This document shows, piece after piece, positions 937 through 19,890 of a DNA stretch of 51,759 nt. The position numbers and the translations under genes are program-made. This stretch comes from Candidatus Beckwithbacteria bacterium (GTDB lineage Bacteria > Patescibacteriota > Microgenomatia > UBA1400 > UBA1449), in the NCBI GenBank assembly GCA_012797845.1, contig JAAZOH010000041.1, positions 1 to 51,759 of the forward strand, in the 5' to 3' direction. Every line of letters begins with the position of its first letter. Position 1 is the first letter of the stretch. Under the pieces are notes generated by a model. It had not been told where the DNA came from. It saw only the letters and a program-made list of their open reading frames with translations, and ran no database searches.

Positions 937-2196
937 TTAGTTAAGCAACTCATGAGCTTCCAGTAAGCGCTTTAGAGCTACTACATAAGCAGCAATGCGC
1001 ATGCTCACTTTTCTACTCTGATATTCTTCCCAAACATTAGCAAAAGCCTGATCCATAATAGTTTTGAGTTTGGCAAAAACTTCTTCCTTCCCCCAATAGT
1101 AGCCTTGTAAATTTTGCACCCATTCAAAATAGCTGGTTACTACCCCGCCAGCATTAGCTAAGATATCGGGTACAACTATATTTTTTGAGTTTTTCAAAAA
1201 TTCCTGTTCAGCCTCAACAGTCATTGGACCGTTGGCTAGCTCTAAAACAACCGAGGCTTTGACTTTGCCAATATTAGTTTTAGTCAAAACCCCATCAATA
1301 GCCGCTGGTACTAAAATATCAACTGGTAAAGCCAGTAGTTCTTCATTACTAATTATTTTACCTTCATTACCAACACAGTCAGCTAAACTTTCTCCTTCCT
1401 GTAAACGGTTCATCACTTCTTCTGGATCAAGGCCACTATCAACATACAAACCCTCTCGGCTATTGGAAACCGAAACCACTTTGTACCCAGCTTGATTGGC
1501 AAAGTAGGCAAACCAGTAGGCTACATTTCCAAAACCTTGGACTGCCACTCGTAACTCTTTTGGTTTCTTACCAAGTTTGGCAGCTAACTGTTGCAGTACA
1601 TAAAACCCTCCTAACCCAGTAGCCTCTTCCCTACCTTGGCTCCCACCTAAAATAATCGGTTTGCCGGTAAAAGTAGCTCGAGGGTTTTGCAAACCCTGCA
1701 AGCCTTTTTGTGACAAATAGTGCTCATATTCATCAACCATCCAAGCCATAATCTGACCATTGGTATTGACATCTGGAGCTGGCACATCCAGCCAGGGCCC
1801 AATGTATGGCGCAAAAGCTTTACCATATTCACGAGATAAAGCCTCCAGTTCTTTGCTGCTTAATTTTTTGGGGTCAAGACTGATACCACCCTTGGCACCA
1901 CCATAGGGAATTCCCGCTACTGCTGTTTTAAAACTCATCCAGAGTGATAGAGCTTTTACTTCATCTTCTGATACATTTGTGTGATATCGGATACCACCTT
2001 TGTACGGACCTAGATATTTGTTGTGTTGGCTGCGAAAAGCCTTATAACTAACAGTCTTACCATTATCCATTTTAATAGTAAGGGTCTTTTTAATTACCCG
2101 ATCCGGAGTTTGCAAACTTGCAATCGTTTTGTCAGACAGCTCTAAAACCTGAGCTGCTTGAACCACTTGGGCTTTGGCTTCATCAAAAGCAGACAT
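937..2196 (-). CDS. gdhA: Glutamate (Glu/Leu/Phe/Val family) dehydrogenase
   Basis: The 419-residue length is typical of hexameric NAD(P)-dependent glutamate dehydrogenases, which interconvert glutamate with 2-oxoglutarate and ammonia. The N-terminal dimerisation/catalytic domain carries the glycine-rich substrate segment GPYKGGIRYH (63-72) and the catalytic lysine Lys102 in YGGAKGG. The PAPDVNTNGQIMAW motif follows, then a Rossmann domain with VQGFGNVA and a C-terminal AGGVVTSYFEWVQN helix. It is the last gene of trxA-trxB-gdhA, 77 bases after trxB, and is followed by a terminator. In an organism with few amino-acid pathways it may serve catabolism or redox balance; cofactor preference cannot be read safely. 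The start ATG has no clear Shine-Dalgarno sequence. Confidence 0.93.
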   Translation of the reverse strand: MSAFDEAKAQVVQAAQVLELSDKTIASLQTPDRVIKKTLTIKMDNGKTVSYKAFRSQHNKYLGPYKGGIRYHTNVSEDEVKALSLWMSFKTAVAGIPYGGAKGGISLDPKKLSSKELEALSREYGKAFAPYIGPWLDVPAPDVNTNGQIMAWMVDEYEHYLSQKGLQGLQNPRATFTGKPIILGGSQGREEATGLGGFYVLQQLAAKLGKKPKELRVAVQGFGNVAYWFAYFANQAGYKVVSVSNSREGLYVDSGLDPEEVMNRLQEGESLADCVGNEGKIISNEELLALPVDILVPAAIDGVLTKTNIGKVKASVVLELANGPMTVEAEQEFLKNSKNIVVPDILANAGGVVTSYFEWVQNLQGYYWGKEEVFAKLKTIMDQAFANVWEEYQSRKVSMRIAAYVVALKRLLEAHELLN

Positions 2197-17065: not shown

Positions 17066-17401
17066 TTAGCGGATAATAGTACCGTTGGAGACTTTTTTAT
17101 CAGGTGTGAGCAGGGCAATTTCTTCATCGCCACCAGCCAATACCATTCCTTGTGATTCCATACCCATCATTTTTTTAGGTTCTAAATTAGAGATAACAAT
17201 AACCTGCCGACCAACTAATTGTTCTGCTTTATAGTGTTGAGCAATACCAGCAATAATTTGGCGCTGGCCAATCTCTGAACCTAAATCAATTTGCAACTTA
17301 ATCAATCGCTCCGAACCTTCAACTATTTCAGCCTCTAAAATTGTACCGACCCGAAGATCTAATTTAATAAAATCTGGAAAAGAAATTTGGTCTTTTATCA
17401 T
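17066..17401 (-). CDS. Stand-alone tRNA-binding domain protein (MetRS C-terminal / CsaA type)
   Basis: The 111-residue OB-fold protein has the signature FIKLDLRVGTILEAE near the N-terminus, RQIIAGIAQHY, and the C-terminal NLEPKKMMGMESQGMVLA. These match the C-terminal domain of bacterial methionyl-tRNA synthetase and free-standing relatives such as CsaA and Trbp111, which dimerise and bind tRNA. An extended -10 promoter lies 7 bases before the chosen ATG, so the gene can be expressed apart from trpS. The upstream in-frame start at 17437 lies within 12 bases of trpS and is less likely. It may support a split MetRS or act as a tRNA chaperone. Confidence 0.88.
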   Translation of the reverse strand: MIKDQISFPDFIKLDLRVGTILEAEIVEGSERLIKLQIDLGSEIGQRQIIAGIAQHYKAEQLVGRQVIVISNLEPKKMMGMESQGMVLAGGDEEIALLTPDKKVSNGTIIR

Positions 17402-17408
17402 GCCAGGT

Positions 17409-17417
17409 AGTATAGCA
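17409..17417 (-). promoter_or_regulatory. Extended -10 promoter, leaderless, for the tRNA-binding protein
   Basis: On the minus strand TGC-TATACT is followed by 7 bases and the ATG at 17401. It is the same arrangement as upstream of prgI at 26836-26844. Confidence 0.6.
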
Positions 17418-17448
17418 GTATATGGGGAAAATAGCAAACTTAAAAGCG

Positions 17449-18438
17449 CTATACTAACCCCATTTTTGCTTTAGTTTCGTCTAGGGTTTGACTGGCAATA
17501 GCTCGAGCTTTTTGGGTCCCTTCAGCAATTACCCGATCCACGTAGTCCGGATTTTGTTCCAGCTCTCGGCGTTTAGCTTGGATGGATTGAAGCTCATTGT
17601 AAATAGCTTGAGCTAGTTCTTTTTTCAAATCACCATAACGGATCCCTTCATTTCTATATTGTTGTTCATATTGCTCACGTTTTGATTTACCTTGGAATAG
17701 TTCCACAAAGGTTAATAAATTAGCTACACCACCAACTCGGGGAACTTGATTACCTTTACCACTATCGGTTGGAGCAGCTGCCAGTTTTTTACTAATTTCT
17801 TCTAGGCTATCTGTTAAATTGATGTAGCTACCCTCAACTGACTTACTCATTTTTCCCTCTCCAGTTAAACTCGGTACATAACCAGTTTTAGTCGCAAACC
17901 GGATTGGTTCAGGAAAGTCAGTTCCATACATATCGTTCATTTTCCGGGCAATTTCCCGAGTTACTTCTAAATGAGGTTCTTGATCAACTCCTACTGGAAC
18001 CAAACCAGCTTTATAGGTCAAAATGTCAGCTGCCATTAAAATTGGATAGTTTAGCAAAGCCATAGTGACTGCATCTGGGTGCTGTTTAACTTTTTCTTTA
18101 AAGGTCGGCAAGTGTTGCATTCGAGCAATAGTTACTACTGAAGAAAATAGGTTAGTTAAATAAGTGTGTTCAGGCACTAGTGATTGCTTGGTAATAATAG
18201 CTTTAGCCGGATCCAAACCGGCTGCTAAATAATCGACAACAACTTCTCTAGCAGTTTGAACTAGATTTGTATGATTATATGGAGTGGTAATAGCATGCAA
18301 ATCCATCACCATATAGAGACATTCATAATCTGGATTTTCTGAAAGTTCTATATAACCCTTAACTGCTCCTAAGTAATTACCTAAGTGCAATCGGCCAGTA
18401 GCCCTGGTTCCAGAAAAAACACGTTGTTTATTGCTCAT
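17449..18438 (-). CDS. trpS: Tryptophanyl-tRNA synthetase
   Basis: The 329-residue class I synthetase charges tRNA-Trp. It begins SGTRATGRLHLGNYLGA, with the HIGH-type motif HLGN, and has the KMSKS loop as GEGKMSKSVEG. The Trp-pocket helix around LLNYPILMAADILTYK and DQEPHLEVTREIARK are conserved, and the length is normal. AAGGAG lies 6-8 bases before the ATG, so translation uses a canonical ribosome-binding site. It starts 9 bases after the frameshifted racemase, so it should be co-transcribed with it and with the attenuator-like leader. Confidence 0.96.
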   Translation of the reverse strand: MSNKQRVFSGTRATGRLHLGNYLGAVKGYIELSENPDYECLYMVMDLHAITTPYNHTNLVQTAREVVVDYLAAGLDPAKAIITKQSLVPEHTYLTNLFSSVVTIARMQHLPTFKEKVKQHPDAVTMALLNYPILMAADILTYKAGLVPVGVDQEPHLEVTREIARKMNDMYGTDFPEPIRFATKTGYVPSLTGEGKMSKSVEGSYINLTDSLEEISKKLAAAPTDSGKGNQVPRVGGVANLLTFVELFQGKSKREQYEQQYRNEGIRYGDLKKELAQAIYNELQSIQAKRRELEQNPDYVDRVIAEGTQKARAIASQTLDETKAKMGLV

Positions 18439-18447
18439 ATATACTCC

Positions 18448-19150
18448 TTATTCAAAATAATATTTAACAATTAATGCTCTAGCTAATACATCTAAAGAGT
18501 TTATTGATGGTATTACATATTTCTTTGGAAATACTAAGGGTAATTCAGTACACCCTAAAATAATTGCATCAACTTTTCGTTTAGTTAATTCATTGGCAAT
18601 TGCCACTAACTCTCTTTTAGATTCTTTTACTTCCCCATTAATAATCCTTTTAATAATTTTACCAAGTTTTTTAATTGATGTTTGGGAGGGTAAAACTACT
18701 TTAACTTGGTTTTGATTCATTTTATCTTGATACAACTTTGTTTGAATTGTTGTTGGTGATGCCAGTAAACCTATTCTTTTATAAGCACGAAGCTTAATTT
18801 CATTAACTACAGCATCAATCATGGAAACAAAAGGTTTGTTTGTTTCATTTTGTAAATCCGACAATAGCAAATGCGCGGTATTGCAAGCAACAGCTAAATA
18901 TGAAACGGGTATTTGAGATAATCTTAGTACTCGATCTTGCAAAATATGTAAGGCTTTTTTTTCATTTCTTTTATTGGAAATAAAATCTGGAACAGGAATT
19001 GAGTCGATAATTATTTCTGGATAGTCATTGTTATTGGCTACGCCAAAGATACTCCCGACTTGCCTCAATCATCAATTGATAAAGTTGAGCTGAAGCATCG
19101 GGCCCCATACCACCCAATATGCCAATAATTTTATTGTTTGTTTTTTTCAT
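18448..19150 (-). CDS. Aspartate/glutamate racemase family protein requiring a +1 frameshift
   Basis: Two frames encode one protein. Frame 1 (19150-19031) gives the N-terminus IIGILGGMGPDASAQLYQ and stops after 39 codons. Frame 2 (from about 19046 to 18448) continues with GVANNNDYPEI, IPVPDFISNKR, the first catalytic Cys in AVACNTAH and the second in ILGCTELPLVF. Joined at CTT-TGG they give about 233 residues, the usual length for Asp/Glu racemases, with nothing missing. The enzyme would make D-Asp or D-Glu for peptidoglycan. The join lies at a prfB-like recoding site, so programmed frameshifting is proposed; a fresh mutation or sequencing error is the alternative. It lies between an attenuator-like leader and trpS. 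Confidence 0.75.
19042..19056 (-). promoter_or_regulatory. Candidate programmed +1 frameshift site (prfB-like, with UGG in place of UGA)
   Basis: Minus-strand sequence GGGAG-TAT-CTT-TGG-C. A Shine-Dalgarno-like GGGAG lies three bases before the slippery CTT. In prfB of Escherichia coli the site is AGGGGG-TAT-CTT-TGA-C. Slippage of the Leu tRNA from CUU to UUU joins the two racemase frames exactly. Confidence 0.6.
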
Positions 19151-19196
19151 ATATCCTTTCATAAAATTTAATAAATAGCTAAACAAGTCATAAAAA

Positions 19197-19268
19197 AACC
19201 TCCTTAAAGGAGGTTGTAGTTTTTTTGTATATTATTTGTTTTTTAGACCATGAAAAACTCAACCTCCT
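19197..19268 (-). terminator. Attenuator-like terminator/antiterminator pair
   Basis: The terminator on the minus strand is AACCTCC-TTTAA-GGAGGTT followed by seven T (19197-19215). Its 5' arm CAACCTCCT (19208-19216) is also perfectly complementary over 9 bases to AGGAGGTTG at 19260-19268, so the two structures exclude each other. A third segment, AACCTC at 19301-19306, can pair six bases with that antiterminator arm. The result is a 1:2, 2:3, 3:4 pairing series like that of amino-acid operon attenuators, placed before the racemase and trpS. Confidence 0.65.
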
Positions 19269-19320
19269 GTAAACAGTGGTTGACATACCAAGAGCTAGAT
19301 GAGGTTTGGTATTTATTCAT
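19243..19320 (-). CDS. Candidate leader peptide, 25 codons
   Basis: A short ORF begins 9 bases after an extended -10 promoter, so it would be translated almost leaderless. Codons 7-10 are four consecutive Ser codons (TCA TCT AGC TCT) and codon 11 is the only Trp codon (TGG), followed by Tyr. Segment 1 of the attenuator (AACCTC) lies in codons 5-7, and the antiterminator arm lies in codons 18-20. A ribosome stalled at the Ser/Trp codons would cover segment 1 and free the antiterminator. Coding status rests on position and codon content only. Confidence 0.5.
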   Translation of the reverse strand: MNKYQTSSSSWYVNHCLQEVEFFMV

Positions 19321-19329
19321 AAGAGTTAT

Positions 19330-19338
19330 ATTATATCA
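19330..19338 (-). promoter_or_regulatory. Extended -10 promoter of the leader-racemase-trpS transcript
   Basis: Minus-strand TGA-TATAAT is a consensus extended -10 element with a weak A-rich -35 region. It lies just beyond the 3' end of the interrupted tRNA (19363) and 9 bases before the leader ATG. Confidence 0.65.
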
Positions 19339-19380
19339 AATTTTTACTTATTAGTTTTTTTGTACCAGCGGGTGGGTTCG

Positions 19381-19410
19381 CCACTCAAAGAGCGGTCACT
19401 CTTGGAGTGA
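19381..19410 (-). other. 30-base hairpin inserted in the T-loop of the interrupted tRNA
   Basis: The insert separates T55 from C56 of an otherwise perfect TTCGAAC T-loop. It folds end to end into a 12-pair stem (one T-G pair at the base, one C-T mismatch) closed by the six-base loop TGACCG. The terminal bases pair with each other, so the T-arm could be extended without disturbing the rest of the tRNA. Confidence 0.7.
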
Positions 19411-19430
19411 AACCACCAACCTTAGCCTTA

Positions 19431-19580
19431 CCTGCCCGCAATGCTAAAGCGCCGTTTTGAAAAACAAACTTAATTACAAATAAATTTTGTACCAGGGGTG
19501 GGATTCGAACCCACAACCTTAGCCTTATGAAGACTCTGCTCAGACCATTGAGCTACCCTGGCATAGCTTTTGCAGGCGGG
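19431..19580 (-). other. 150-base structured insert in the anticodon loop, carrying a second tRNA
   Basis: The insert begins CCCGCCTGC and ends GCGGGCAGG on the minus strand. These ends pair over nine positions (seven Watson-Crick, one T-G, one C-A mismatch), an imperfect terminal inverted repeat. A further complementary pair inside, GCAAAAGC with GCTTTAGC, provides an alternative or extended stem. The complete tRNA at 19490-19562 lies between these arms. Without that tRNA only 77 bases remain, too short for a group I intron. Confidence 0.7.
19490..19562 (-). tRNA. tRNA with CAT anticodon (Met or Ile2), complete, nested in the interrupted tRNA
   Basis: A 73-base canonical tRNA without encoded CCA. 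Acceptor GCCAGGG / CCCTGGT (G1-U72 wobble), TA at 8-9, D-arm GCTC-AATGGTCT-GAGC with GG in the loop, anticodon stem GAGTC / GGCTA (27-43 is a G-A mismatch) with loop TTCATAA, variable AGGTT, T-arm GTGGG-TTCGAAT-CCCAC, discriminator A. It lacks the three G-C pairs of initiator tRNA, so it is an elongator Met or a lysidine-type Ile2 tRNA. Its anticodon arm is identical to that of the surrounding interrupted tRNA, which indicates duplication. Confidence 0.88.
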
Positions 19581-19620
19581 TGAAGACTCTGCTCTACCAC
19601 TGAGCTACGCTGGCAAAAAA

Positions 19621-19695: not shown

Positions 19696-19702
19696 TCTTG
19701 TG

Positions 19703-19776
19703 TAGCGGGTCCCCGGTAACGCTCCAGAGGTTAGGTGAGGTTATGAGCCTCACGGGATACTTACCCCCCACCCGCT
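19703..19776 (-). ncRNA. tRNA-like cloverleaf with CAT in an initiator-type anticodon loop
   Basis: Seventy-four bases can form four stems. The acceptor is AGCGGGT / ACCCGCT, the D-like arm GGG-TAAGTAT-CCC, and the anticodon arm GTGAGG-CTCATAA-CCTCAC. The T-like arm is CTCTGG-AGCGTTA-CCGGGG. The anticodon loop CTCATAA and GCGGG acceptor core recall initiator tRNA-fMet. However, T8, the D-loop GG and the TTC of the T-loop are missing. It is therefore a degenerate or specialised tRNA-like RNA rather than a normal tRNA. It lies between ftsB and the palindromic element, on the same strand as the other CAT tRNAs. Confidence 0.45.
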
Positions 19777-19890
19777 ATAACAGGCTATATCTTATCAAAA
19801 TTTACTTCAAATGGCAATGAAATCTGAGATTAATTTTTTAAATCCTATAAGTTAAAGCTTAAAATAAGAGCTTAACGAATTATTTTAAAC

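Follow-up and report, generated by a model that had tools for sequence, protein, structure and literature searches.

A predicted leader-peptide attenuator reading tRNA-Trp charging ahead of a racemase-trpS operon in Candidatus Beckwithbacteria

The racemase-trpS operon on the contig analysed here (a stretch of 51,759 nt, referred to throughout as the window, from a draft assembly of an uncultured Candidatus Beckwithbacteria lineage) is very probably controlled as E. coli trp is, by transcription attenuation through a translating ribosome, and the attenuator would read the charging of tRNA-Trp. The leader and its operon lie on the minus strand and consist of the following features, in the coordinates of the window:

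19330..19338, minus strand: extended -10 promoter TG-TATAAT (TGATATAAT), with TG at 19338-19337 and TATAAT at 19335-19330 (from the sequence)
19243..19320, minus strand: leader ORF MNKYQTSSSSWYVNHCLQEVEFFMV, 25 codons and a TAA stop, ATG at 19320 (from the sequence and the comparative detector)
19301..19306, minus strand: segment 1, AACCTC, able to pair with GAGGTT of segment 2 (from the fold with the stop-codon footprint masked; shuffles are often as good)
19288..19290, minus strand: Trp codon UGG (TGG in the DNA), codon 11, the proposed regulatory codon (Trp is common to the detected leader-like ORFs, 16/16)
19253..19269, minus strand: segment 2, the 5' arm of the antiterminator, CAGGAGGTTGAGTTTTT, beginning CAGGAGGTTGAG at 19269 (from the shuffle test)
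19208..19216, minus strand: segment 3, CAACCTCCT, common to antiterminator and terminator (from sequence, pairing and folding)
19192..19204, minus strand: segment 4, AGGAGGTT (19204-19197), with the T run to 19192, together AGGAGGTTTTTTT; 3' arm and tail of the terminator
19031..19150, minus strand: 0-frame N-terminal part of the racemase, MKKTNNKIIGILGGMGPDASAQLYQLMIEASREYLWRSQ and a stop (from the sequence and comparison with homologues)
19042..19056, minus strand: putative programmed +1 frameshift site GGGAG-TAT-CTT-TGG-C, prfB-like (identical in a sister genus; homologues are in one frame there)
18448..19044, minus strand: +1-frame remainder of the racemase, Asp/Glu racemase PF01177 (profile match)
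17449..18438, minus strand: trpS, tryptophan--tRNA ligase (TIGR00233, 290 bits, above the cut-off)
17066..17437, minus strand: tRNA-binding-domain protein of the MetG C-terminal/CsaA type (PF01588, TIGR00399), the last codirectional gene ahead of ftsH

The original prediction had placed an extended -10, a 25-codon ORF with Ser and Trp codons and a set of complementary segments at 19197-19338, and the sequence confirms each of these parts. The leader ATG lies 9 nt past the -10 hexamer, and the leader ORF is probably leaderless. The ORF has a single Trp codon, directly preceded by a run of Ser codons (codons 7-10, TCA TCT AGC TCT), and the distance from the Trp codon to segment 2 is 18 nt. Segments 3 and 4 make up an intrinsic terminator with an 8-bp stem (19215-19197), a 3-nt loop and the T run behind it.

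From these parts and their positions, together with the predicted switch and the comparative pattern, we infer the start of transcription, the translation of the leader and its response to Trp. Transcription would start ~7 nt past the -10, and the mRNA would therefore have its 5' end on the leader AUG or close beside it. With ample Trp-tRNA, the ribosome would pass the UGG at codon 11, reach the stop codon and cover segment 2; with segment 2 covered, segments 3 and 4 would form the terminator and transcription would end ahead of the racemase. Under a shortage of Trp-tRNA, the ribosome would wait at codon 11 and leave the downstream segment 2 free to pair with segment 3, and RNA polymerase would continue into the racemase and trpS.

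Folding of the window leader with the ribosome treated as a nucleotide mask, a single-sequence calculation in which kinetics are ignored, switches as this scheme expects and bears out the amino-acid attenuation logic (2:3 versus 3:4) proposed at the outset. When the ribosome is masked as stalled at the Trp codon, the 2:3 antiterminator has P 0.99 and the terminator P 0.00, and when it is masked at the stop codon, the terminator has P 1.0 and 2:3 P 0.0. The 2:3 duplex (CAGGAGGTTGAGTTTTT with AAAACTACAACCTCCTT) has an energy of -19.6 kcal/mol, equalled by 0/300 shuffles. Among the originally proposed pairings, 2:3 and 3:4 are thus supported, but the 6-bp pairing of segments 1 and 2 only poorly, as 53/300 shuffles were as good or better; masking only the stop-codon footprint gives a predicted fold that holds 1:2 beside the terminator. 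The unmasked free-RNA ensemble is dominated by the 2:3 antiterminator (P 0.97), and termination in the window copy is therefore expected to require that a ribosome arrives at the stop codon. Because of this preference, and because segment 1:2 is no better than chance, termination without translation is predicted to be weaker by default than in E. coli. The stall model leaves the terminator at P of at least 0.95 in several relatives (e.g. G045, G064, G069b, G034, G033 and L116), so this simple model of the ribosome is best regarded as crude.

For the comparative survey, racemase homologues were collected from the order, the class, the phylum and GTDB contigs, trpS was searched across the order, and the upstream DNA was taken. 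The relatives comprise Ca. Beckwithbacteria AS27yjCOA_127 (G001) and other Patescibacteria, including Levybacteria, Daviesbacteria, Pacebacteria and Dojkabacteria; in G002, from the same family, the racemase is absent and no trpS match passed the cut-off. We assembled 23 leaders with Trp codon(s) and a terminator before trpS or racemase operons, with peptides such as MSNSDTTANTSWYRS, MYTQIQKTFGFSWWTL, MTRTTARSSWWASLK, MNTKSSLVYWYYKTN and MKVQTSTYWYYEMN or, in Dojkabacteria, MKNNTNVQLTLNNWWNPQTWRE; visual inspection of the sequence added three further Trp leaders, in G314, G272 and G122. A detector blind to amino acids, which requires a -10 (≤1 mismatch) 5-12 nt before an ATG, an ORF of 8-30 codons and, as terminator, a perfect stem of at least 6 bp within 90 nt, found 16 leader-like ORFs in 104 trpS/racemase upstream regions, every one with Trp and five with Trp-Trp. 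By comparison, 15 sets of dinucleotide shuffles of these regions yielded a mean of 0.07 leader-like ORFs, with 0 containing Trp, and the same detector found 0 on the opposite strand of the 104 regions.

Comparison of segments 1-4 in relatives, suggested as a check along with the original prediction, speaks in its favour: 2:3 and 3:4 hairpins are found in the 23 leaders, and segments 2 and 3 covary. Segment sequences vary among genomes, with the complementarity of partners kept, and when segment 3 was swapped between leaders the summed 2:3 energy of the true pairs was reached in 0/20000 permutations. Across ten related leaders, 91% of the 2:3 helix is paired, and double changes of the types C-G/U-A and G-C/U-A occur; the 8 double-change cells give a covariation score reached by 0/500 shuffles, in a test made on 9-nt segments cut and joined by hand, from relatives only and with no close copy of the window leader among them. 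Segment 2 starts 10-22 nt past the last Trp codon of the run in the 23 leaders, which is about the downstream reach of a ribosome. The -10 hexamer (≤1 mismatch) ends 6-12 nt before the ATG, and no SD is present, in most of the 23; because of this arrangement, leaderless initiation may be routine for such leader ORFs. A leader with a single Trp codon had been considered a non-standard case for trpS, a view that the survey does not sustain, since in 13/23 leaders Trp codons stand singly and not side by side, and attenuators have been predicted before trpS and leuS in Streptomyces (PMC1262725).

In searches against Rfam, the window leader gave no family at gathering score. The Trp_leader model (RF00513, gathering cut-off 41 bits) had no match in the window and scored 28-29 bits, under the cut-off, in two relatives (L084 and L086). 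Low-score matches of the window leader to miRNA and sRNA families were dismissed as chance. The original observation that T-box consensus elements are missing is confirmed, with no T-box (RF00230) match in the window leader even at E 10 and no specifier or T-box sequence.

Several other explanations of the leader have to be weighed against attenuation. The GGAGG in the hairpins could act as a Shine-Dalgarno sequence, with the leader switching access to it and not transcription, an alternative already raised with the original prediction. Segment 4 indeed contains GGAGG, followed by T7-ATG, and at L096 the racemase itself starts at the ATG directly behind the terminator, and there the hairpin may do both. 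In the window, however, the ATG behind the terminator opens a 7-codon ORF only, and the racemase begins ~40 nt later (ATG at 19150) behind its own AAAGGA site; most relatives have a terminator stem without GGAGG (e.g. AAACTCGC..GCGAGTTT) and keep the T run. We therefore give translational control only a slight chance. It is fainter still, to the point of being hardly credible, that the hairpin is a mere terminator of the upstream tRNA-Met transcript, with the ORF and the complementary segment being accidental. The tRNA-Met gene is codirectional and does end ~150 nt before the leader promoter, but leader-like ORFs with promoter and terminator are nearly absent from shuffles and from the opposite strand, all that were found have Trp, and a plain terminator would give the 2:3 segment no role.

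Sensing of serine, or of serine and Trp jointly, would fit the four Ser codons directly before the Trp codon, where a waiting ribosome would cover segment 1 too, and Ser or Thr is often found ahead of Trp in relatives. We nevertheless consider it very improbable: conservation of the Ser codons did not hold up, as the run is absent in relatives and Trp is the one residue shared by every leader, trpS and not serS lies downstream, and the T-boxes before the same operon carry UGG specifiers. Judged by these sequences, Trp, and not Ser, is the regulatory codon. The proposal that the leader reads Trp charging is accordingly upheld by the invariable Trp in the detected ORFs, by trpS downstream and by the UGG T-boxes found at the same operon.

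T-boxes precede racemase-trpS in G001 (same family, sister genus; E 9.5e-9) and G003 (E 0.0015), and both are full length, yet under the Rfam gathering score. As read from the sequence, the T-boxes of G001, G003, G108, G219 and G183 have UGG in the loop of a very short first stem, and UGG short-stem T-boxes stand before trpS alone in G010, G087 and G017. Other racemases are preceded by trpR (PF01371) or by trpG (L094, read from sequence). Because the same operon follows UGG T-boxes in G001 and G003, or trpR elsewhere, the signal would be Trp in all three designs. At L096 (2523-2900), trpR ends ..TSWWQNLSSHMGG and a stop, followed by a segment 2/3/4 set ahead of the racemase, and its tail seems to double as a Trp leader, combining repressor and leader peptide in one ORF. 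The window genome also has T-boxes before glyS (G000:C25:4657-4842, L072) and thrS (G000:C29:20319-20502, L073), two genes identified by N-terminal sequence; a single cell thus has both designs for sensing tRNA.

Some further observations concern the same operons. Before racemase-trpS, Trp T-boxes take the place of the window's leader peptide, and short-stem-I UGG T-boxes, under the gathering score where scored, were seen at L003, L007, L092, L167, L170, L128, L206 and L207. The window TrpS (17449-18438) is only 34% identical to its syntenic counterpart in the sister genus G001 (L004), so it seems that the type of synthetase, like the regulator, was replaced at this locus. The racemase is found repeatedly beside Trp signals, namely trpS, trpR, trpG, a Trp T-box or a Trp leader (L088, L096, L101, L107, L110, L084, L099 and others), and its repeated ties to trpS, trpR, Trp T-boxes and Trp leaders hint at a role of this Asp/Glu-type racemase in Trp metabolism. 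At L093 (1664-1800), a second leader (MNKDLKTLKNFWFFYFTR and a stop) with a terminator precedes other genes and has a weak match to RF01859 Phe_leader; attenuators for Phe or aromatic amino acids may exist in this group too.

The racemase gene of the window is read in the 0 frame from 19150 to about 19046 and in +1 for the rest, while homologues read through in one frame. The stretch that holds the candidate site is GGGAGTATCTTTGGC. In GGGAG-TAT-CTT-TGG-C, an internal SD-like stretch, a 3-nt spacer, CTTT, a slow codon and the downstream gene in +1 match the parts and spacing of the prfB (RF2) +1 frameshift motif (PMC12421855). We suggest, tentatively and at somewhat less than even chances, that the operon reads charged tRNA-Trp twice, by attenuation in the leader and by a racemase that would be completed only through a +1 slip at a hungry UGG (CUU UGG C). 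As for the earlier idea that a frameshift site reads Trp together with the leader, the prfB-like site, identical in G001, stands, whereas the shifting itself is predicted and its dependence on Trp at this UGG is something that we only infer.

Among 72 racemase loci scanned for broken frames, some of them duplicates of one genome, breaks were found in the window, G001, G415, G113, G272, G314 (where the shift differs) and G122 (in a copy that looks decayed); the phylum-wide racemase search gave no further frameshifted copies. L154 and L160 were flagged for a TAA inside the match, which is the normal stop at the gene end. The junction is AGG-TAT-TTT-TGG-C in G415 and, at another point of the racemase gene, AAAGG-TYA-GTT-TGG-C in G113 and G272. 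Slippage is expected to be harder on GUU than on CUU. In three lineages, G000 (the window genome)/G001, G415 and G113/G272 (window 19042-19056 on the minus strand, L003 ~630-650, L088 ~1365, L226 and L224), an NTT-TGG junction follows a purine-rich stretch plus 3 nt, an arrangement that resembles prfB-type +1 frameshifting in which UGG takes the part of the slow codon. The prfB gene of the window genome is full length and in one frame, not itself frameshifted. A search with the pattern GGNNNNTAT was uninformative, as its spacing is wrong for a frameshift site.

Ordinary gene decay or an assembly error, devoid of regulatory meaning, could also break the frame, and we hold this to be unlikely, if with an appreciable share of the probability. 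The two pieces of the G001 racemase lie at two contig ends, next to an IS30-like gene, G122:C7 holds the decayed-looking copy, and a one-base insertion into the Phe-Gly stretch TTTGGC makes TGG automatically, so that the TGG codon is weak evidence in the window and in G415; the G113/G272 junction is not explained by such an insertion. Against decay, the site is identical in two genera and has the prfB parts at prfB spacing, and both halves of the gene show a third-codon-position excess, differences between G000 and G001 by codon position being 2/2/10 before the site and 28/21/50 after it in the +1 frame. The same excess in both racemase halves is seen in G113, G272 and G314, whose operons also have Trp leaders.

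The proposed attenuator shares with the E. coli/enterobacterial trp attenuator (RF00513) Trp codon(s) in a short ORF, the alternative of 2:3 and 3:4, and Trp-related genes downstream. It differs in controlling racemase-trpS and not trp biosynthesis, with a single Trp codon, a weak segment 1 and probably no 5' UTR or SD, and in being missed by the Rfam model. The Streptomyces trpS2/leuS attenuators (PMC1262725) are likewise classical attenuators directly ahead of an aminoacyl-tRNA synthetase gene, but belong to another phylum; the racemase is the first gene in the window, and no frameshift is reported in Streptomyces. In Sinorhizobium meliloti the trpL transcript begins at the leader ATG and is leaderless (PMC7298713), a likeness claimed for the design only, with trpL controlling trpE(G). 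The Trp T-box (RF00230) senses tRNA-Trp charging too and stands at the equivalent position ahead of racemase-trpS in G001, G003 and others, whereas the window leader would work by a translated ORF. The racemase site resembles that of prfB (PMC12421855) in its purine-rich internal SD, the 3-nt spacer TAT, the CTTT slippery site and a C after the slow codon, but has UGG (Trp) for UGA and lies in the racemase gene of an operon predicted to be Trp-regulated.

In the open-licence literature we found no report of Trp-codon attenuators, leader peptides or T-boxes in Patescibacteria/CPR, and a Trp-codon leader attenuator is apparently undescribed in these bacteria. The comparison suggests that Trp leaders are a common control of trpS in reduced Patescibacteria genomes, exchanged at one and the same operon with T-boxes and TrpR from relative to relative; the rewiring of a single regulatory input could readily be studied in such a natural series. 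What could be genuinely new is the racemase frameshift. Atkins et al. 2016 (PMC5009743) knew of no examples of hungry-codon frameshifting making a starvation-specific trans-frame protein; a Trp-dependent UGG frameshift would, if true, answer this open question, and the racemase would be the first natural case of starvation-induced frameshifting that yields a full-length protein.

Other RNA features lie near the leader. Folding showed a conserved RNA of cloverleaf-like shape, whose anticodon-like loop CUCAUAA resembles that of an initiator tRNA, at 19698-19782 (minus strand) in the window and at 1191-1270 (minus strand) in L003; it is reported by neither ARAGORN nor Rfam. An intact tRNA-Met gene (19562-19489) is flanked on both sides by tRNA-Met-like fragments (window 19359-19440 and 19579-19615), which look as if they were partial duplications.
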